DNA of 64,000 nucleotides from Haladaptatus sp. DJG-WS-42 (GTDB lineage: Archaea; Halobacteriota; Halobacteria; Halobacteriales; Halococcaceae). A program made the translations under genes and the position numbers. Where the stretch lies: contig NZ_CP147243.1 in assembly GCF_037198285.1 (NCBI RefSeq), positions 1,178,001 to 1,242,000 of the forward strand, in the 5' to 3' direction. Under the pieces are notes generated by a model, which was not told the origin of the DNA, did no database searches, and was given only the letters and a program-made list of their open reading frames with translations. Below, in pieces: positions 27,218-36,762 of the stretch (positions are counted from its first letter, which is position 1; every line of letters begins with the position of its first letter).

Positions 27218-30200
27218 ATGGCGCACGCGGAAAACGCAGAGCTCATAGACAGATTCGAAGAGTTCTACCGGAACTACTACCGCGACGCAATCGGGGAACT
27301 CGCACAGAAGTACCCAAACGAGCAGCGGTCGCTGTATCTCGACTATCAAGACCTCTATCGCTTCGACCCAGACCTCGCAGACGATTACCGGTCACAACCG
27401 GGTCAGCTCCAGCAGTACGCAGAAGAGGCGCTGCGGATGTACGACTTGCCGGTGGACGTGGGCCTTGGCCGGGCGCACATCCGCATCCGAAACCTCCCGG
27501 AGGCGACGGACATCCGGAAGATTCGGGCACGGCATCGCGGGCGGCTCATCGCGGTGCAGGGCATCGTCCGCAAGGCAACCGACGTGCGGCCGAAGATTCA
27601 GGAAGCCGCCTTCGAGTGTCTGCGCTGTGGGACGCTGTCGTTCATCCAGCAAGCGGGCGGGGATTTTCAGGAACCCCACGAGTGTCAGGGCTGTGAACGA
27701 CAGGGACCGTTTTCCATCAACTTCGACCAGTCTGAGTTCATCGACGCCCAGAAGCTCCGGGTACAGGAAAGCCCAGAGGGACTGCGCGGCGGTGAGACCC
27801 CCCAGAGCATCGACATCCACATCGAAGACGACATCACGGGCAAGGTCACGGCGGGCGACCACGTCCGCGTCACGGGGATTTTACACTTAGAACAGCAGGG
27901 GAACAACCAAGAGAAATCCCCGATGTTCGACGTGTACATGGAGGGCAGTTCCATCGTCATCGAAGACGAGCAGTTCGAGGACATGGACATCACTGAAGAG
28001 GACAAGAAAGCCATCATTGAACTCTCGCAGGACGCAGAGATTTACGACAAGATGGTCGGCTCGATTGCGCCCTCGATTTTCGGCTACGACCAAGAGAAAC
28101 TCGCGATGATTCTCCAGTTGTTCTCAGGGGTGACCAAGCACCTGCCCGATGGGTCGCGCATCCGCGGCGACCTGCACATGCTCCTCATTGGTGACCCGGG
28201 GACTGGTAAGTGCGTCAAAGGCGATACAAAAGTCACGCTCGCAGACGGTTCAGAGGTCGCGATTCGAGAGCTAGTCGAATCAAATCTCACGAACCCGAAA
28301 CCAATTGACGATGGCGTGTATCAAGAGGTTGATTTTCCAGTACCTTCGGTCGATATAGACGGAACCCTAACTCAAAAGCGAGCCACGAAAGTCTGGAAGC
28401 GCGAAGCACCTGATCGGATGTATCGAATCCAAACCGCGAGCGGAAGCGAGATAGAGGTGACCCCGTCTCACCCACTGTTTGTCCAATCGGACGGCAGATT
28501 CTCAGCTCGCAAGGCTGAAATGCTCTCCGAAGGGCAATTTATCGCGACACCTCGGCATATTCCGACCACGTGGGACGATAGGCTTTCTGTCGAGTATCGA
28601 CGGTCGAGAGCGAACAATGCCGTGCGTCTTTCCCTCCCAGAAACGTGGACGCCTTCACTTGCGCGACTCATCGGCTACATCATAGCAGAAGGACATGTGT
28701 ACCGAAATGACGAGAACAGCGGCTCTGTCACCATCACGAACAACGACCGCGAGATTCTCGATGACATTGCTGACGGATTCGAGCGATTGGGACTGACGTG
28801 GTCTGAACGTGAAGGGCGGCCGGACAAACAGGCGCAAGAAGTTGTCTGCTCAGCTAGTGAGTTTGTAAGCTTCCTCGAAGATCTGGAGCCCGCCATCCTC
28901 AAACGATCTGCCGAACAGCGCGTTCCACAGGCGCTATTCAGCACAAGTCCAGAGGTGAAAGCAGCGTTCCTGAAAGCCTATATCGAGGCTGAAGGTCACG
29001 TCTCAGCCACGCAACGAGAGATTACGGTCAGTTCGATGAGTCGTGAGCTTTTAGAGGGTGTGAAGTCGTTGCTCGCGTCGATTGGTATTCGCGCTCACCT
29101 GAAATCACGACACAACGGGAGTTACCGGCTCCGAGTCGGCGGTTCGGACTTCAGTGAGTACGTTGAACTAGTTGGGTTCGTAACCGAGCGAAAAACCGTT
29201 GCATCACAGGCATTTACCGACGTACCAGAGAATACCAACGTCGATGTAATTCCGGATATTGGAGACAAACTACAGGAAATACGTAACGCATTAGCACTGT
29301 CGCAGTTCGACTGTGGTGTTCCTCGGTCAACCTACCAGCACTACGAACGTGGCGACCGCAATCCCGGACGTGACACGCTTCGGCTCGTCATCGCGGCGTT
29401 TGAAACCCGACTGAACGAACTGCAAACACTCAGTGAAACGGTGCAACCCGAATGGGAAACCGTTAAAAACGCACGGCAAGACGTGAACATCTCCCAGCAG
29501 GCAATTGCTGACCACGTGGGTGTGTCACAGCGGACAGTGAGCCTTCACGAGCGTAACGAAGTCGTTTCAGACGGTGGCTATGTAACCGAGGCCCGCGACG
29601 TCATAGAAGAGCGAATCAAGAGTGGGCTGGCTGTTGCTGACGACATAGCTGCTCTCAAAGACCTCGTAAACGGAGACATCCGTTGGGACCGAATTGAGTC
29701 GATAGAACCCGTTGAGCCGGAGTACGACTGGGTGTATGACCTGGAAATCGAAGAAACCCACAACTACCTGACGAACAACATTGTATCGCACAACTCCGCG
29801 ATGCTCCAGTACATCCGGAACATCGCCCCGCGCTCGGTGTACACCTCCGGGAAAGGGTCGTCCTCTGCGGGTCTCACGGCCGCGGCAGTGCGCGACGACT
29901 TCGGCGACGGCCAGCAGTGGACGCTCGAAGCCGGTGCGCTCGTCCTCGCGGACAAGGGGATTGCAGCGGTGGACGAACTCGACAAGATGCGACCGGAAGA
30001 CCGCTCTGCGATGCACGAAGCCCTCGAACAGCAGAGCATTTCGGTTTCGAAAGCGGGCATCAACGCGACGCTCAAGTCGCGGTGTTCGCTGCTCGGGGCG
30101 GCGAACCCGAAGTACGGACGCTTTGACCCCTACGAGCCAATTGGCGAGCAAATCGAACTCGAACCGGCGCTCATCTCGCGGTTCGACCTCATCTTCACGG

Positions 30201-30898
30201 TGACGGACAAACCGGACGCCGACAAGGACACGGAACTCGCAGAACACATCATCCGGACGAACTACGCTGGCGAACTCCACACCCACCGCACGCACACCAA
30301 CTCCTCTAACTTCACCGAACAGCAGGTAAACGACGTGACCGAGGAGGTCGCGCCGGTCATCGATGCCGAGTTGCTTCGCAAGTACATCGCGTTCTCGAAG
30401 CGCACCTGTTATCCAACGATGAGCGACGAGGCAAAGCAGGCCATCCGCGATTTCTACGTTGACCTGCGCGCGAAAGGCGCAGACGAAGACGCGCCCGTGC
30501 CCGTGACCGCCCGGAAACTCGAAGGGTTGGTGCGCCTCGCGGAGGCGAGCGCGCGGGTTCGCCTCTCCGATACGGTCCACGAAGAGGACGCAGACCGCGT
30601 CATCGAACTCGTCCGGTCGTGCCTGCAGGACATTGGGGTTGACCCAGAAACCGGCCAGTTCGACGCGGACGTTGTCGAGACGGGGCGCTCGAAGACCCAG
30701 CGCGACCGCGTGAAGAACATCAAGAACCTCATCGCCGAGATCGAACAGGAGTACGAAGACGGCGCGCCAATCGACGTGGTGTTAGACCGCGCAGAGGAGA
30801 TCGGGATGGACCACTCGAAGGCCGAACACGAAATCGAGAAGTTAAAACAGAAAGGCGAGGTGTACGAACCGCGCACCGACCACCTCCGAACGACGTAG
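27218..30898 (+). CDS. mcm: Replicative MCM helicase, interrupted by an intein
   Basis: 1226 codons encode a 698-residue MCM after removal of 528 intein residues. N-terminal domain with zinc cysteines Cys134, Cys137, Cys156, Cys159 (CLRCG, CQGC) and OB fold; AAA+ core with Walker A GDPGTGK broken by the intein before its Ser, Walker B VDELDKM, the ANP sensor and SRFDLIF arginine finger; C-terminal winged helix. MCM forms the ring that unwinds DNA at replication forks. Since the insertion separates the P-loop Lys from Ser, no ATPase can form before splicing. A two-base-spaced gene follows and a run of co-directional genes continues to 34483. Confidence 0.97.
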   Translation: MAHAENAELIDRFEEFYRNYYRDAIGELAQKYPNEQRSLYLDYQDLYRFDPDLADDYRSQPGQLQQYAEEALRMYDLPVDVGLGRAHIRIRNLPEATDIRKIRARHRGRLIAVQGIVRKATDVRPKIQEAAFECLRCGTLSFIQQAGGDFQEPHECQGCERQGPFSINFDQSEFIDAQKLRVQESPEGLRGGETPQSIDIHIEDDITGKVTAGDHVRVTGILHLEQQGNNQEKSPMFDVYMEGSSIVIEDEQFEDMDITEEDKKAIIELSQDAEIYDKMVGSIAPSIFGYDQEKLAMILQLFSGVTKHLPDGSRIRGDLHMLLIGDPGTGKCVKGDTKVTLADGSEVAIRELVESNLTNPKPIDDGVYQEVDFPVPSVDIDGTLTQKRATKVWKREAPDRMYRIQTASGSEIEVTPSHPLFVQSDGRFSARKAEMLSEGQFIATPRHIPTTWDDRLSVEYRRSRANNAVRLSLPETWTPSLARLIGYIIAEGHVYRNDENSGSVTITNNDREILDDIADGFERLGLTWSEREGRPDKQAQEVVCSASEFVSFLEDLEPAILKRSAEQRVPQALFSTSPEVKAAFLKAYIEAEGHVSATQREITVSSMSRELLEGVKSLLASIGIRAHLKSRHNGSYRLRVGGSDFSEYVELVGFVTERKTVASQAFTDVPENTNVDVIPDIGDKLQEIRNALALSQFDCGVPRSTYQHYERGDRNPGRDTLRLVIAAFETRLNELQTLSETVQPEWETVKNARQDVNISQQAIADHVGVSQRTVSLHERNEVVSDGGYVTEARDVIEERIKSGLAVADDIAALKDLVNGDIRWDRIESIEPVEPEYDWVYDLEIEETHNYLTNNIVSHNSAMLQYIRNIAPRSVYTSGKGSSSAGLTAAAVRDDFGDGQQWTLEAGALVLADKGIAAVDELDKMRPEDRSAMHEALEQQSISVSKAGINATLKSRCSLLGAANPKYGRFDPYEPIGEQIELEPALISRFDLIFTVTDKPDADKDTELAEHIIRTNYAGELHTHRTHTNSSNFTEQQVNDVTEEVAPVIDAELLRKYIAFSKRTCYPTMSDEAKQAIRDFYVDLRAKGADEDAPVPVTARKLEGLVRLAEASARVRLSDTVHEEDADRVIELVRSCLQDIGVDPETGQFDADVVETGRSKTQRDRVKNIKNLIAEIEQEYEDGAPIDVVLDRAEEIGMDHSKAEHEIEKLKQKGEVYEPRTDHLRTT
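28211..29794 (+). mobile_element. Intein in MCM with LAGLIDADG endonuclease and two HTH motifs
   Basis: 528 residues from Cys (codon 28211) to Asn (29792-29794), followed by extein Ser. Intein residue numbers: block A CVKGDTKVTL at 1-10; block B EVTPSHPLF at 82-90; LAGLIDADG-type motifs LIGYIIAEGH (153-162) and LKAYIEAEGH (254-263), both retaining the acidic residue; block G NNIVSHN at the end. Residues 353-400 and 416-455 look like two XRE-type helix-turn-helix units (STYQHYERGDRNP; QQAIADHVGVSQRTVS). Splicing residues Cys1, His527, Asn528 and Ser+1 are all present. Base composition is visibly more A/T-rich than the flanking exteins, consistent with transfer. Confidence 0.93.
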
Positions 30899-31180
30899 AT
30901 GGACCGAATTTCTGCCCTGCGGAACATCGAAGACGCGCTCGCCGCCTTCGAGCAAGGCGAGACGGATTTGGCGACGATGGAACAGCGCGTCCGCGGCGTG
31001 TTGCGCACCTACGCGACCGAATTTGCAGATAATTCACTGGCCGCCTATCGAGCGTCCGGAGATACAGCAGTGGATGGACTTGTCGTGGTCGCCGAGTCGA
31101 GCGCACAGGCCCGCGAGCGCATCGGAGAGTTAGGTGGACAAGCGTCCACATTCACGGTAGAGCGGGTCGATTCCTCGTAA
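30899..31180 (+). CDS. Small haloarchaeal protein downstream of mcm
   Basis: 93 residues starting immediately after the mcm stop codon. Helical N-terminus (ALRNIEDALAAFEQGETDLATMEQRVRGVLRTY is the region, residues 5-40) and a mixed C-terminal part with VDGLVVVAESSAQARERIGEL. Soluble and acidic. I recognise no function. The contiguous arrangement suggests co-transcription with mcm. Confidence 0.7.
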   Translation: MDRISALRNIEDALAAFEQGETDLATMEQRVRGVLRTYATEFADNSLAAYRASGDTAVDGLVVVAESSAQARERIGELGGQASTFTVERVDSS

Positions 31181-31217
31181 TATCGGACATTGTGAGTGTC
31201 GTGAAACCCGCAACGAT

Positions 31218-31226
31218 TTTATATAT
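31218..31226 (+). promoter_or_regulatory. TATA box before the KaiC-like gene
   Basis: TTTATATAT lies 28-36 bp before a TTG at 31254. It supports that TTG as the start, because the next ATG (31335) would cut into the first conserved strand. Confidence 0.55.
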
Positions 31227-31253
31227 CCACGGTTATATTACTGAAGAACAAGT

Positions 31254-31880
31254 TTGAGCCAAAGAGAACCACAGGAGCAATCACTTCATCAGCAATTGTC
31301 AGATACTTCTAATATACTCCTGTGTACGCCACCGATGAGTCCGGCGGCGGAGGATTCGTGTATGGAGTTGCTGACGCCACCGGCTGAGACGGAGTTGAAC
31401 GTTCTTTGGGTTGCTTACTCTCGCACGCCGGACAGCTGTCTCACACAGTGGCGCCAGCATGGCACAACCCAACCGAACGATATCTCGATTATCAACGTCG
31501 GCGATAGCGTTCGCTCTGCTGTCGCTGCAAACGGCGCGAGTCACGGTGGGCCCGGCCCGATTCAGACAGTCCCGAGTGCCGGCGATCTGACTGGACTCGG
31601 AATTGCGATTAGTAACGTGCTCTCTCAATGGGCAGAAACGGACGCCCAAACTGTCGTCTGTTTCGATTCGCTCACGGCACTGCTCCAGTACGTCGAACCC
31701 GAGAAGTCCTACGAGTTTTTACACGTTCTCACCGGACGACTGTTCGCTGCGGACGCCATCGCCCACTTCCACATCAGTCCGGACGCCCACGACGACCAAA
31801 CGGTCGAAATGATTCGCTCACTGTTCGATGGCGAAGTCTCCATCACAGAAGACAGCGACCGAATCGTACTCACACGCTGA
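31254..31880 (+). CDS. KaiC/RecA-fold protein without a P-loop (DUF7504-like)
   Basis: 208 residues from TTG 31254. The layout is that of a RecA-superfamily domain: first strand NILLCTPPMSPAAEDSC where a Walker A should sit, but no GxxGxGK(S/T); then TELNVLWVAYSRTP, the Walker B-like strand TVVCFDSLTALLQYV, and HVLTGRLFAADAIAHFHI. I recall such KaiC-like, P-loop-less proteins as a haloarchaeal family (DUF7504). ATP binding is therefore doubtful and a regulatory or scaffold role likelier. It is co-directional with mcm and followed by three further conserved genes and a MinD. Confidence 0.7.
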   Translation: MSQREPQEQSLHQQLSDTSNILLCTPPMSPAAEDSCMELLTPPAETELNVLWVAYSRTPDSCLTQWRQHGTTQPNDISIINVGDSVRSAVAANGASHGGPGPIQTVPSAGDLTGLGIAISNVLSQWAETDAQTVVCFDSLTALLQYVEPEKSYEFLHVLTGRLFAADAIAHFHISPDAHDDQTVEMIRSLFDGEVSITEDSDRIVLTR

Positions 31881-31923
31881 CCAGTCGATAATTTTAACAA
31901 CCAATATTTCTGAAACGAGTAGT

Positions 31924-32262
31924 GTGCTCCTCGTCGTCACCTACTCGACTGCGGCTCGCCAGACGCTCAGAAACATCTGTCGAGCGCACGACGCCGTCGT
32001 GATTCGCCGGTTCGGGCGAGCCGCGCTGTTCGAGACGACTGAGTTGGGAGCCTTCCTTGCCTTGCGGCTGCTCGAAAAACACGGTCAAGACGTCCAGCTC
32101 GCAGAGACAACACCGTTCAACGAGTTCGAGGCGGTTCCAGACCGAGTGCGTGAGGCGGCGAGTGCGTACGAAGCTCGCCCGAATGCGAGTACGCCATATG
32201 CCAAATTCGCCGTTGGAACGGCCCATCCAACGCCTGAGGAGATGGCGACACGCGAGCTATGA
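31924..32262 (+). CDS. Small conserved haloarchaeal protein
   Basis: 112 residues from GTG 31924, beginning MLLVVTYSTAARQTLRNICRA, then AVVIRRFGRAALFETTELGAF, a helix ALRLLEKHG and a C-terminal YAKFAVGTAHPTPEEMA motif. Soluble, with a compact alpha/beta pattern. The GTG is chosen because the conserved strand starts there and an A/T-rich TATTTTAA-like box lies about 30 bp upstream. It overlaps the next gene by four bases (ATGA). No function recognised. Confidence 0.65.
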   Translation: MLLVVTYSTAARQTLRNICRAHDAVVIRRFGRAALFETTELGAFLALRLLEKHGQDVQLAETTPFNEFEAVPDRVREAASAYEARPNASTPYAKFAVGTAHPTPEEMATREL

Positions 32263-33056
32263 AACTGCGGGTAGATGGCGTCGTGTATTCGGGCCGTGCA
32301 ATTGACCTGTCGGCTGAGCCGGTCGGCGCTGAGGCGGTGTGTCGCGCTGTCTCGGGCGACGACTCTGAAATTTCGCTGTCGTGTCCTGACCCACAGCCTG
32401 TCTACGACCACGTCGGCTACATCCACCCGGACCTCTCGCTCTCTCGACGGAGCGCGCTGGCTGCGGCGGCACGGTCGTGTGGATACACTGCTCCGCAAGA
32501 TGAAGCGCTCAGCGAGATTCGAGCGAACCTCGAAGCCCACGATTCACCGGCGGTATCGGTCAGAGCAGCGCGCAAGCGAGCCGCGAAAGCCGGTGCTGAG
32601 TGCGAGCGACTTCAGGAATCGGTCGCCGCCCAGCGTGGTCGCGTGCAGGCGCTTCGCGCCCTCGGAGAAGACCCAAACGACGCGGAAACCCGCCTCAAAG
32701 AGACGATTGCGGCGCTTTCAGAGCAGGAAACAGAACGCATCGCGGCCGAGCAGACGCTCGCCCACGCAGAGCAACAGGCGCGAGCCGCACGAGACAGCCG
32801 AGAGCGACGCATGCGCCTCGAAGATCGGGAAGCAAACCTCAGACGCGCGGCGCGGCGGGCGCTTGCAGCGCAGGTGGAGGGCGAAGTTGAAAAGGCACGG
32901 GCACAGCTTCCAGCAGCGCACCCACAGGCGGTGGCGTCGGCGCTCGCGATTGCTCGAGTCGCATCGGTTCAGGCACCGGTTGTGCTCTCAGGGGAGTGGT
33001 TCGAGACGGCGACGGCGGCCGCAAACTGGCTCTGTGCCCCCGTGATTCGGCTGTAG
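32259..33056 (+). CDS. Coiled-coil haloarchaeal protein
   Basis: 265 residues. An N-terminal small domain (1-60, MKLRVDGVVYSGRAIDLSAE) precedes a long Ala/Arg/Glu-rich coiled coil (about 75-215) resembling SMC-type or filament linkers, then a short hydrophobic end WLCAPVIRL. It starts within the preceding stop codon, so it is coupled to it. A structural partner of the neighbouring MinD-type ATPase is conceivable; that is inference only. Confidence 0.65.
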   Translation: MKLRVDGVVYSGRAIDLSAEPVGAEAVCRAVSGDDSEISLSCPDPQPVYDHVGYIHPDLSLSRRSALAAAARSCGYTAPQDEALSEIRANLEAHDSPAVSVRAARKRAAKAGAECERLQESVAAQRGRVQALRALGEDPNDAETRLKETIAALSEQETERIAAEQTLAHAEQQARAARDSRERRMRLEDREANLRRAARRALAAQVEGEVEKARAQLPAAHPQAVASALAIARVASVQAPVVLSGEWFETATAAANWLCAPVIRL

Positions 33057-33086
33057 TTTAAGACACAAGCCGCGGCCAGTGGCCGC

Positions 33087-33824
33087 ATGGTCGAACTCGA
33101 TTGGACGCTGCGCGAAGCGAGGGGTGTGTGCCTTGTCGAACTCCGGGTTGAAAACCCACGGAAGACGGCGGTTCGCATCCGAATCGCGAACGAACTGCCA
33201 GCACCGCTCTGGCCGCCTCGATGCGAGGGCCTGCCAGTCACGGGGTGGGACGACGGTGGCTGGGAAGGCGTAATTCCATCCGAGACGGTGGTTGCGCTTG
33301 GCTATGCAGCTCCGACAGCACCGGTCGAACCACCAGTGACGGTGGCGTGGGAAGAACGCGCTGAATCACCAACAGCTGAGTACGACTCAGCGAGCGCCGT
33401 GGTACAGGCGCTTGGCGACGCCTCACCGCCGCGGGACGCGGTTCCCGTCGAAATATCGACTGCCCATGGAGAACAGGCTGGAGAAAGACTGGCAGGCAAG
33501 AAGCAAGCCTGCATGGAACAGTCACCAACAGAGAGTGCAGACGAGCAGGACCCTCCTGTTTCGCTCCCGCCCGCAGTCAGCGACTGGCTATCGACCGTCG
33601 AGCGCGACGTTGCCCGCGCAGAGCGACTCGCTGCGGTCGAAACCGTCCCCGAAGCGACAGCCGCGGTTTCTGCGGTTGGGGGACTCGACGGGGTACGAGA
33701 GCTCGCCGAGACAGTGGCAAAAACGGAGTCGCAACTCGAATCGCTCAGCGAGGCGGCAGAAACGCTCGAAACGCGACTCGATGAGGCTGCGATTCCAGTA
33801 GCAACCCTCGCGTCGCTCGCATGA
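33087..33824 (+). CDS. Haloarchaeal protein with N-terminal beta domain and C-terminal coiled coil
   Basis: 245 residues. The first 90 form a beta-rich domain (LVELRVENPRKTAVRIRIAN, WPPRCEGLPVTGWDDGGWEG). A low-complexity linker (about 90-170) leads to a helical C-terminus (RLAAVETVPEATAAV, KTESQLESLSEAAETLETRL). It has a TTTAAG box about 28 bp upstream and overlaps the MinD-type gene by four bases, suggesting joint production. Function not recognised. Confidence 0.65.
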   Translation: MVELDWTLREARGVCLVELRVENPRKTAVRIRIANELPAPLWPPRCEGLPVTGWDDGGWEGVIPSETVVALGYAAPTAPVEPPVTVAWEERAESPTAEYDSASAVVQALGDASPPRDAVPVEISTAHGEQAGERLAGKKQACMEQSPTESADEQDPPVSLPPAVSDWLSTVERDVARAERLAAVETVPEATAAVSAVGGLDGVRELAETVAKTESQLESLSEAAETLETRLDEAAIPVATLASLA

Positions 33825-34483
33825 TCCTCGCAGTCACAGGCGGGAAGGGTGGGGTTGGGAAATCGACAGTGGCGTACAACCTCGGCGCAGAACTCGATGC
33901 CGTCGTCGTGGACGCAGACCTCGGAATGGCAGACTTGCCACCGGGTCACGGGCCAGACCTCCACGACGTGTTGGCGGGGCGTGCAACACCACGCGATGCA
34001 ATCGACGACTCGGGTGACGTGACGCTCGTGCCGTGTGGGCGGAGCCTGAACGGCGCACGTGCGGCCGACCCGACCAATCTGGGAAGCGTGGTACGCGCAC
34101 TCGAAGCCGAGTTTGGCGAGGTGGTCATCGACTGTCCAGCAGGGCTGGCGAGCGATGCCGGGGTGCCGCTCTACGTTGCAGACTGCTGTCTCATCGTGAC
34201 GACTGCGGAGCCACCGGCACTCGCAGACGGGGTTAGGACGCGCGCACTCGCTCGGAAATTGGGTACTGGGCTGTGTGGCGTTACGCTCAATCGCAGCGGT
34301 GAGCGTGCACCGACCGACCGGGTTGCGCGGCTCTTTGGCGCACCAGTCGTGTCGCTGCCAGAAACGAGGGCTGCACAGGTCGCCTTCGATGCGTCAGTCG
34401 CGGTGAAAGCAGTCGAGCCAAACGGTGCATTTGCCACGCAGGTCAGAAAAGTTGCAAAACTCGTTCACTCCTGTACGGCGTGA
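33821..34483 (+). CDS. MinD/ParA-type P-loop ATPase
   Basis: 220 residues. Deviant Walker A GGKGGVGKSTVAYN (residues about 6-20) with both lysines present; switch I VVVDADLGMADLP; Walker B-like VVIDCPAGL. It lacks a clear C-terminal amphipathic membrane-targeting helix, ending KVAKLVHSCTA. Such ATPases dimerise on ATP to position division, chromosome or surface machinery. It is the last of five co-directional genes after mcm and its 3' end overlaps the convergent tfb gene. Confidence 0.88.
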   Translation: MILAVTGGKGGVGKSTVAYNLGAELDAVVVDADLGMADLPPGHGPDLHDVLAGRATPRDAIDDSGDVTLVPCGRSLNGARAADPTNLGSVVRALEAEFGEVVIDCPAGLASDAGVPLYVADCCLIVTTAEPPALADGVRTRALARKLGTGLCGVTLNRSGERAPTDRVARLFGAPVVSLPETRAAQVAFDASVAVKAVEPNGAFATQVRKVAKLVHSCTA

Positions 34484-35331
34484 AACGTGGTGCGGAGCGT
34501 GACCGGAGTGACGCCAGCCACGGCCGCGGCGTCGGCTTGGGTGAGGGTGCTGTCGTGCTCTTTTCCGGCAGTGTAGAGACACGCAGCCGCGATACCACTC
34601 GGATTTCTTCCACAGACGAGCCCCTGCTCGTGGGCTTCGGCGACGAGTTCCCGTGCGCGGCGTTCGACGGCGGCAGAAAGGTCGAGTTCGCTTGCGAATC
34701 GCGGCAGGTACTCGGTCGGGTCGATTGGCCCCGTCGGTAAGCCGAGTTCGCGGTTGAGGGCATCGTAGGCGGCTTTGAGCTCGGCTTCGGTCGCCCGCGC
34801 GTGGGAGACGACTTCCGTGAGCGTCCGCGAGATGGTTGCCGTCCGGCAAGTCGCGTACACTGCGGCGGCGGCGAAGCCTTCGAGTGAACGACCCTGCAGT
34901 AAATCAGCAGACTGCGCAGATTTGAACAACACACACGACTGGTCGCGGAGGCTTTCTGGCAGGCTGAGTTGGCTCACGAGCCGCCGGATTTCCGTGAACG
35001 CGTAGACGCGATTTCGGTCGCGCTTCGAGGAGATTTTCGCCCGGTTGTGCTGGCGACGCATCCGAGCGACGCGACGGCGCTTGCGACCTTTCAGACGGGT
35101 CGAGTAGCCAATCTCGGTCGAGAGGCCGCGGTCGTGACGCGAGCGAGTGAGCGGCGCGCCGGTGCGCTTTCGCGTCTCCTCGTTTTCGGTGAACGCCCGC
35201 CACTCGGGACCGCGGTCGATGCGGTCTTCTGCGACGACGAGCCCACAGCTGGGACAGAACGTTTCGTCCGATTCAGTGCGGAGATGTTCGCTACATTCGG
35301 GGCAAGCCTGCGTTGATTGTGCCGAACTCAT
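34465..35331 (-). CDS. tfb: Transcription initiation factor TFB (TFIIB homologue)
   Basis: 288 residues. N-terminal zinc ribbon (CPECSEH ... CPSCGLVV), B-finger region with RGPEWRAFTENEETRKRTG, and two cyclin repeats (about 95-185 and 190-288), including YTAGKEHDSTLTQADAAAV. TFB binds TBP-TATA complexes and recruits RNA polymerase; haloarchaea carry several paralogs with different promoter preferences. ATG 35331 is used; a TTTAAATA box at 35359-35367 gives a leader of only a few bases. The 3' end overlaps the MinD-type gene by 19 bp. Confidence 0.93.
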   Translation of the reverse strand: MSSAQSTQACPECSEHLRTESDETFCPSCGLVVAEDRIDRGPEWRAFTENEETRKRTGAPLTRSRHDRGLSTEIGYSTRLKGRKRRRVARMRRQHNRAKISSKRDRNRVYAFTEIRRLVSQLSLPESLRDQSCVLFKSAQSADLLQGRSLEGFAAAAVYATCRTATISRTLTEVVSHARATEAELKAAYDALNRELGLPTGPIDPTEYLPRFASELDLSAAVERRARELVAEAHEQGLVCGRNPSGIAAACLYTAGKEHDSTLTQADAAAVAGVTPVTLRTTFHAVQE

Positions 35332-35358
35332 CACATTTCGAACTTGGTTCCGAATGGG

Positions 35359-35367
35359 TATTTAAAG
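35359..35367 (-). promoter_or_regulatory. tfb: TATA box of tfb
   Basis: On the minus strand CTTTAAATA lies 28-36 bp from the ATG at 35331. Confidence 0.55.
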
Positions 35368-35410
35368 ACGGGACGATTTGCCGAAAACCGTCCGCAAGCG
35401 GTGGTGTAAA

Positions 35411-35429
35411 CCTACCGGTCACCGGTAGG
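35411..35429. promoter_or_regulatory. 19-bp palindrome midway between divergent promoters
   Basis: CCTACCGGT and ACCGGTAGG surround a single C. Its centre (35420) is about 57 bp from the tfb TATA centre and about 56 bp from the TATA centre of the rightward gene, so it sits symmetrically between both promoters. It is a strong candidate for a shared operator. Confidence 0.6.
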
Positions 35430-35471
35430 CTTTCTCGGCGAACGCGATTGATTTTACAAATACGTGGAAAA

Positions 35472-35479
35472 TTTTTAAC
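35472..35479 (+). promoter_or_regulatory. TATA box of the gene at 35504
   Basis: TTTTTAAC lies 25-32 bp before the ATG, giving a leaderless mRNA. Confidence 0.5.
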
Positions 35480-35503
35480 TATGATAGGTCAGAACTTACA
35501 CGT

Positions 35504-36016
35504 ATGGCGCTCTCAGACATCGCCGCCGGGTTGGAGGTGACGACCGAACAGCACCACCGCGGGGTTGCAACGGTCGATACCACCGAGACGGCGCTCGCAG
35601 ACCGGCTCGAACCCGTGGCAGACGACCTGCCCTGTTCGGCCGCCGCGGCGGCGACTGTCATAGAGACATACGCAACCGGCGCGAGTGTGGGCGACTGTGG
35701 GGTAGAGGCAGGCGTTGCACCCGTCACCGCCGCGAAGGTGTTACACCTCGCGGGCGAGGCGACGACGCCGCTCAGCCCACAGGGTCGCCAGTTCGTCCGC
35801 GATTGGTTGGCTGCAACCCTCTCCCGAGCAGACGCACTCGCACTCTCGGGCGCGAGCGATGCCGAGTTCGCACTCGCGGCGTACTGTGAGACACACGACC
35901 CCCTCGCGGCGGTGTGTGAAGCTGCAGAAGGGGCACTCTCGCCGACTGGGTCTGCAAGCGTGGCGAAACGCGACGCGCTCGCAGAGACAATGAGTGAGAG
36001 CGGCGAGTTCTTCTAG
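35504..36016 (+). CDS. Conserved haloarchaeal helical protein divergent from tfb
   Basis: 170 residues, mostly Ala-rich helices (CSAAAAATVIETYATGASVG, VTAAKVLHLAGEATTPL, RQFVRDWLAATL). The middle 'GASVGDCGVEAGVAPVTAAKVLHLAG' region (about 60-85) has the look of a helix-turn-helix with a short turn at VAPVTAAK. A DNA-binding role is therefore possible but not shown. It shares its intergenic region, with the 19-bp palindrome, with tfb and converges on the second MinD-like gene with a 4-bp overlap. Confidence 0.65.
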   Translation: MALSDIAAGLEVTTEQHHRGVATVDTTETALADRLEPVADDLPCSAAAAATVIETYATGASVGDCGVEAGVAPVTAAKVLHLAGEATTPLSPQGRQFVRDWLAATLSRADALALSGASDAEFALAAYCETHDPLAAVCEAAEGALSPTGSASVAKRDALAETMSESGEFF

Positions 36017-36762
36017 CGAGAAAGCGAGTACTTTTCGAGCAGCCCGGGGTCTTCGAACTCGATGCCGAGGTCGGTGTCGAACAGCGTCTCTGCAACGTCG
36101 ACGACCGACGGTGCAAGCGCACCATCTTCGGCGGTCGCACACGTTGGTGAGTCGGGGTCGGCATTTGCGCTTTCTGGAATCAACAACTCCGTTTCACGGG
36201 CGAACAGCGAGCCGTCTGCGCGATTGGCGAGGAGGTGGTCGCCACTCGCACCAACGTCCTGAAGGCGGCCGCGAATGGGTGAAATCGCGTCGAGGCCGCG
36301 TTCGGTTGCGGGCGCGACGAGCGCGACCGCGTCGGCCGCGGTGACCGCGGCAACCGCCGGGTTCGTGGCGAGCGGTGGCGTGTCGATGAGCACGATGTCG
36401 AACCCGCGTGTGAGGTCGGTGACGTAGTTCGAGAGCTGTTCTGCGGCGGCGGGCGCTTTCGCGCGAGCCAGTTGCTCGAACGTTGCGTGCGACGGGACGG
36501 CAGAAAGTCGTCCGTCGAGGTCGAGGGGAAGGTCGTAGATGGCGGCTTCAATCGGTTTTTCACCAGTCACAGCATCGGTCACGTCCGTCTCGAGTGGGCC
36601 TGAGACGTACCGTGCCAAACCTTGTGTTCCGTAGGCGGCATCGAGGAGTACGACATCGTGGCCACCGCGGGCGAGCGTCGCACCGAGTTCGAGCGTGAGG
36701 CGTGTCGTTCCGGCACCACCCACGACGCCACAAAGCGCGAGCGACTGCGTCTTCGTATCCAT
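36013..36762 (-). CDS. MinD/ParA-like protein with degenerate Walker A
   Basis: 249 residues. The SIMIBI fold is recognisable: GGHDVVLLDAAYGTQGLA (strand 2/switch I) and FDIVLIDTPPLATNPAV (Walker B/switch II), VTAADAVALVAPATERG. The nucleotide loop reads CGVVGGAGTTRLTLELG, where a MinD would have KGGVGKTT: both the signature lysine and the P-loop lysine are absent. ATP hydrolysis is thus unlikely, although the Walker B aspartate remains. It lies close to an intact MinD-type gene, so it may be a non-catalytic partner. A hydrophilic variable C-terminus ends LLEKYSLSR. Confidence 0.75.
   Translation of the reverse strand: MDTKTQSLALCGVVGGAGTTRLTLELGATLARGGHDVVLLDAAYGTQGLARYVSGPLETDVTDAVTGEKPIEAAIYDLPLDLDGRLSAVPSHATFEQLARAKAPAAAEQLSNYVTDLTRGFDIVLIDTPPLATNPAVAAVTAADAVALVAPATERGLDAISPIRGRLQDVGASGDHLLANRADGSLFARETELLIPESANADPDSPTCATAEDGALAPSVVDVAETLFDTDLGIEFEDPGLLEKYSLSR

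Follow-up and report, generated by a model that had tools for sequence, protein, structure and literature searches.

The replicative helicase gene mcm of a haloarchaeal chromosome is followed by a run of small genes whose products include a MinD-type ATPase, a MinD-like protein deprived of both its lysines and putative coiled-coil proteins. Do these products form one machine, and what would it do? The original prediction, made from the DNA letters, took them for a single complex acting in chromosome positioning or in the coupling of replication to division. The window, by which we mean the whole 64,000-nucleotide stretch that was analysed, covers positions 1178001-1242000 of the 2.78-Mb chromosome. 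Every gene named in that prediction was found at its position, and the locus reads as follows (sets A and B are defined below).

27218-30898, + strand: mcm, replicative helicase (Pfam MCM, MCM_OB, intein and LAGLIDADG matches)
30899-31180, + strand: DUF7854, 93 aa, first after mcm and in the same place in most loci (Pfam PF25252, E 4.5e-38)
31254-31880, + strand: DUF7504 protein, optional member, P-loop-less and weakly KaiC-like (Pfam PF24336, E 3.7e-41)
31924-32262, + strand: DUF7855, about 112 aa, probable GTG start (Pfam PF25253, E 7.6e-54)
32259-33056, + strand: DUF7856, set A (Pfam PF25254)
33087-33824, + strand: DUF7857, set B (Pfam PF25256)
33821-34483, + strand: MinD-type ATPase (MinD1, probable counterpart of HVO_0225), set B, intact deviant Walker A
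34465-35334, - strand: tfb, transcription factor B (Pfam TFIIB)
35504-36016, + strand: DUF7858, set A (Pfam PF25257)
36013-36762, - strand: pseudo-MinD, set A, MinD-like with both deviant-Walker-A lysines lost

As predicted, the genes between 30899 and 34483 are co-directional with mcm and end in the MinD-type ATPase. There is a 0-bp gap between the end of mcm (30898) and the start of DUF7854 (30899). Overlaps of 4 bp join DUF7855 to DUF7856 (32259-32262), DUF7857 to MinD (33821-33824) and DUF7858 to pseudo-MinD (36013-36016), and the ends of tfb and the MinD gene overlap convergently (34465-34483). The start of DUF7855 is most likely the GTG at 31924, judging from a conserved M1 column in the alignment, so that DUF7855 would not overlap the DUF7504 gene. 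No transmembrane-like segment was found in the median member of any block family. Apart from TFIIB and MinD/ParA-type matches, Pfam assigns the block to DUF families that are already named and are uncharacterised; a literature search found no paper naming them or HVO_0224/0227/0228. mcm itself is interrupted by an intein at about aa 339-859 (window 28215-29791), in which Pfam recognises LAGLIDADG and HTH domains. A genome of the same genus (G124) has an mcm without intein at this site and a further MCM gene that lies on a different contig, perhaps a plasmid (G124:C4:8095-8763).

To see whether the gene order is conserved, profiles of the window proteins were searched against 55 class-wide loci and 80 loci from named genomes (including Haloferax, Halorubrum, Halobellus and Halorientalis), and genome contigs were scanned with the MinD alignment as seed. 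The order mcm > DUF7854 > (DUF7504) > DUF7855 > DUF7856 > DUF7857 > MinD, < tfb, DUF7858 >, < pseudo-MinD was found in most loci sampled and was seen again in at least six haloarchaeal families. The conservation expected by the original prediction is thus real. DUF7504 is an optional member, present in about 17 of the 55 class-wide loci. Joint relocation of tfb, DUF7858 and pseudo-MinD is seen in some groups, among them the genus-level group g7. The window's sister genus (g2) and most of the f4 family members sampled have lost the block mostly or wholly, and there tfb comes after mcm. mcm is retained where the block is lost, tfb often is too, and the mcm-tfb junction is found in block-less families. 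One locus (L186, genome G123) reads mcm-DUF7857-MinD-tfb-pseudo-MinD; lacking both DUF7856 and DUF7858, it is an intermediate of the two sets that occurs in nature.

The MinD of the window carries the deviant Walker A motif KGGxGK[ST] of MinD/ParA ATPases. In the ortholog alignment the signature lysine K9 is kept in 112/112 sequences, the P-loop lysine K14 in 111/112, and D31, D33 and D104, which include the Walker B aspartate, in 112/112. Its profile found the archaeal MinD 1hyq of A. fulgidus as the best match in the PDB (E 6e-39, nearly full length). Fold and intact motif are common to 1hyq, to P. furiosus 1g3q and to MinD1 of H. volcanii (HVO_0225), although the window protein scores 123.6 against the NCBI minD_arch family, under its cut-off of 201.75. 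The C-termini of the orthologs are variable, several stop at the last helix of the fold, and by eye no conserved tail is seen where bacterial-type MinD carries its amphipathic membrane-targeting helix. In H. volcanii, mcm is HVO_0220 (PMC3972481), MinD1 is HVO_0225 (PMC11588486) and TFB is HVO_0226 (PMC7714728); by locus-tag order HVO_0225 therefore lies downstream of mcm and beside tfb, as the window MinD does. On the basis of gene order in the Haloferax loci L088, L089 and L099 and of the locus-tag numbers, MinD1 very probably has its counterpart in the window MinD.

This identification brings genetic results to bear on the locus. According to the available portions of PMC11588486 and PMC11621097, H. 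volcanii from which the four minD genes, minD1 included, have been deleted shows no effect on division, growth or FtsZ positioning, and MinD2 and MinD4 affect motility, the archaellum and CetZ1 positioning. The same portion of PMC11621097 states that MinD1-3 had no described function and that a clear MinE-like partner had yet to be identified; it also reports that the quadruple mutant has the motility of the minD2/minD4 double mutant. A phenotype of the minD1 deletion alone was found in neither portion, and neither speaks of ploidy or of DNA positioning. The normal division and growth of the four-minD deletion argue against a role in coupling replication to division, and the lack of a division phenotype was among the outcomes that the original prediction itself had named as counting against it.

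Both lysine sites of the second MinD homolog carry other residues in 60/60 orthologs, just as had been read from the single window sequence, so the deviant-Walker-A lysines of MinD/ParA ATPases are absent from every ortholog aligned. The Walker A glycines are kept, together with the following Arg21 (59/60) and the Walker B Asp127 (60/60), and the profile still finds 1hyq (E 1.5e-8), which places the protein in the MinD/ParA fold. With the lysines gone and these other features kept, pseudo-MinD is, as judged by sequence, a conserved pseudo-ATPase.

To examine whether the genes are inherited as one unit, co-occurrence was counted over 194 genomes as both, first only, second only and neither. The counts were 141/5/1/47 for DUF7857 and MinD, the sole MinD-only genome (G128) having DUF7857 by the window-based profile; 119/0/1/74 for DUF7856 and DUF7858, the exception (G056) being a 36-residue remnant; and 117/2/3/72 for DUF7856 and pseudo-MinD. 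The Fisher tests on these tables take no account of phylogeny. The associations persist with the genes more than 60 kb apart. Between DUF7856 and DUF7858 lie about 257 kb (G006), 332 kb (G128) and 768 kb (G135). The distance from pseudo-MinD to DUF7858 exceeds 100 kb in G016 and G058. A single genus-level group accounts for most of the genomes with unlinked genes. The block behaves as two separable sets, MinD with DUF7857 (set B) and pseudo-MinD with DUF7856 and DUF7858 (set A). About 30 genomes have DUF7857-MinD and lack DUF7856. In G018, G182, G054 and the g21 group, set A is kept although no MinD match reached the cut-off applied, which indicates that the two sets are not obligately coupled. 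Within set A, pseudo-MinD is retained where DUF7856 and DUF7858 are lost or truncated (G056, G099, G123, G189). Co-inheritance and, as predicted, a coupled set of active and inactive MinD homologs are supported; a single complex is rejected, since each set is found alone.

The block has also been lost repeatedly. On a tree of MCM, its presence changes at least eight times on supported branches, and mcm is retained. DUF7856 and DUF7858 were concordant in 8/8 independent contrasts on this tree (p 0.0078), with DUF7858 states entered by hand from genome-wide calls and truncated remnants scored as absent. In G124, a deletion of about 4.65 kb runs from window position ~32,030 (DUF7855) to ~36,690 (pseudo-MinD start), tfb included, and the joint shares the sequence GTTCGAG; a separate deletion in G012 extends from DUF7854 to pseudo-MinD. 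The scars themselves (L073:8817-8890 and L079:7389-7432) fuse DUF7855 or DUF7854 to the pseudo-MinD start, with a short shared sequence at the joint. In G099, a truncated DUF7856 runs into the end of DUF7858. The scars in G124, G012 and G099 indicate that the block is dispensable. Because co-loss consists largely of single deletions of linked genes, it does not count as independent evidence.

ParA/MinD ATPases work with a partner as an ATP switch, and DUF7857 is proposed as the partner of MinD1. As in the positioning systems with ParB, MinE or McdB partners, the ATPase gene adjoins a dedicated gene, and the two are almost always present together. The system differs from those in that a non-catalytic MinD paralogue joins the set and that the DUF7857 profile gave no significant match to any solved protein in the PDB. 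DUF7857 has a conserved N-terminal domain and a C-terminal part whose sequence suggests that it is helical. The C-terminal part is absent from 10/10 loci of genomes lacking set A and present in 87/101 loci with set A; it is short or missing in the other 14, and it was therefore rejected as a strict marker of set A. In some genomes of families f4, f3 and f8 a DUF7857-MinD pair stands at a second locus, where the two genes are again together, and in the second copies (3/3) the C-terminal part is likewise lacking. Since they consist of the N-terminal domain only, it is likely this domain that contacts MinD. The association with MinD and the known behaviour of ParA/MinD ATPases together make DUF7857 the best candidate for the missing partner of MinD1.

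A MinD domain that looks active, fused to the KaiC-like domain DUF7125, is encoded nearby at 8 of the 11 second loci (L171:4768-6072, L172:7029-8333, L174:6863-8290 and five more). DUF7125 has a KaiC-like start with the P-loop replaced, and these fusions support a functional tie between MinD ATPases and P-loop-less KaiC-like domains. The DUF7504 protein of the window had been described as such a P-loop-less KaiC-like protein. The P-loop (Walker A) is indeed absent in 17/17 aligned orthologs; kinship to KaiC is weak, KaiC being the best PDB match at E 0.077 and Pfam giving DUF7504/DUF7090 only. The resemblance to KaiC/RadA-type proteins of the RecA fold is that of the DUF7125 domain in the fusions; in the window's DUF7504 protein it is weak. 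Some MinD-DUF7125 fusions match DUF7504 weakly; the profile comparison of DUF7504 with DUF7125 was not convincing. Beside two second-locus pairs lie large surface proteins of the CARDB/PGF-CTERM type (L171:9422-14122, L172:9486-11843), and HerA-like ATPases occur near the pairs at two loci.

Taken together, these results lead us to a tentative reading, which we hold at somewhat less than an even chance: MinD1 would be a switch with DUF7857 as its partner, pseudo-MinD with DUF7856 and DUF7858 would form a second, co-inherited module, and the two would position or tether something. MinD1 would bind ATP, dimerise and bind a surface, as ParA/MinD switches do, and would hydrolyse ATP when engaged by its partner. 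DUF7857 would act as a dedicated partner or adaptor in a role like that of MinE or ParB, its N-terminal domain touching MinD and its C-terminal helical part possibly coupling to set A. Pseudo-MinD may be a non-hydrolysing scaffold or a modulator of MinD1, DUF7856 a rigid spacer made of a coiled-coil hairpin, and DUF7858 a small HTH-like protein that possibly contacts DNA.

An alternative is that MinD1, pseudo-MinD and the hairpin and HTH-like proteins position the chromosome or the replisome, and are expressed with mcm to match replication. The 0-bp gap and 4-bp overlaps of the co-directional block, the adjacency to mcm kept across families and the lack of a conserved MinD tail past the last helix are consistent with it. 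Predicted structures provide further hints. The AF2 model of DUF7856 (pLDDT 97.4) has a small alpha/beta head and a long coiled-coil hairpin, in line with the predicted coiled coil. Its order of N-terminal strands, hairpin and C-terminal strands is that of SMC/Rad50/SbcC proteins, and SMC/Rad50 heads lead its Foldseek list, with Smc5/6, Rad50 and Smc in the top rows. However, the best E was 0.09, the TM-scores were low and none was significant. The DUF7856 alignments contain no P-loop, so that the Walker A and signature motifs of an ABC-type SMC/Rad50 head are not both there, and DUF7856 is not a demonstrated member of that family. The model of DUF7858 is all-helical with an HTH-like core (core pLDDT mostly above 94); its Foldseek list consists mostly of HTH proteins, including weak ParB-type ones, but the best E was 0.75 and none was significant, and the protein is acidic overall. 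For neither model did Foldseek give a match at E 0.001 or better, and PDB profile searches with DUF7855, DUF7856 and DUF7858 found nothing significant. The SMC-like and HTH-like resemblances therefore serve as leads only.

A role in replication or in division is not supported, and several observations are difficult to reconcile with such a replication machine. The sole link to replication is the adjacency to mcm, yet mcm stays through all the changes of the block on the tree; set B or pseudo-MinD lies far from mcm in some lineages; and H. volcanii without MinD1-4 divides and grows normally (PMC11588486). Therefore, it seems unlikely that the block positions the chromosome or replisome in step with replication. 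A more elaborate scheme for DNA or replisome positioning is very unlikely; in it, MinD and pseudo-MinD would make a mixed switch, DUF7857 its activator, DUF7856 a miniature SMC-like bridge and DUF7858 a DNA-contacting cargo adaptor.

MinD1 and its partners might instead position archaella, chemotaxis arrays or CetZ, as do MinD2 and MinD4, and the TFB encoded by HVO_0226 appears in a model of motility regulation (PMC13286277). The distribution of archaellin does not support motility as the function of the block: 104 genomes have both, 15 the block only, 54 archaellin only and 21 neither (p 0.013, a value that carries no correction for phylogeny), and the window's own genome is one of the 15 with no archaellin match. 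Since archaellin does not track the block, and since cells without all four minD genes move as the minD2/minD4 double mutant does, a role in motility or polarity appears rather improbable, and a purely motility role is argued against.

It is also conceivable that MinD-DUF7857 pairs organise proteins of the cell surface and that the copy linked to mcm acts similarly, as the surface-protein and HerA-like neighbours of second-locus pairs might suggest; such neighbours are not common to all second-locus copies and no surface gene lies within the mcm block, which makes an envelope function highly improbable. That these are simply dispensable genes in a conserved housekeeping region, co-lost purely by large deletions, would agree with the two losses traced at nucleotide resolution and with the fact that order conservation can by itself be passive, but it too is hardly probable because DUF7856/DUF7858/pseudo-MinD and DUF7857/MinD are jointly kept even where they have moved apart in the genome.

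The reading as two co-inherited sets provides MinD1 with a specific candidate partner, DUF7857, and adds a second set built on a conserved pseudo-MinD. Natural deletion strains exist across the haloarchaea, including one of the genus to which the window's organism belongs, and the question of the MinD1 partner thereby becomes testable. For the ParA/MinD family it would be unusual to have a conserved pseudo-ATPase kept beside such a switch.
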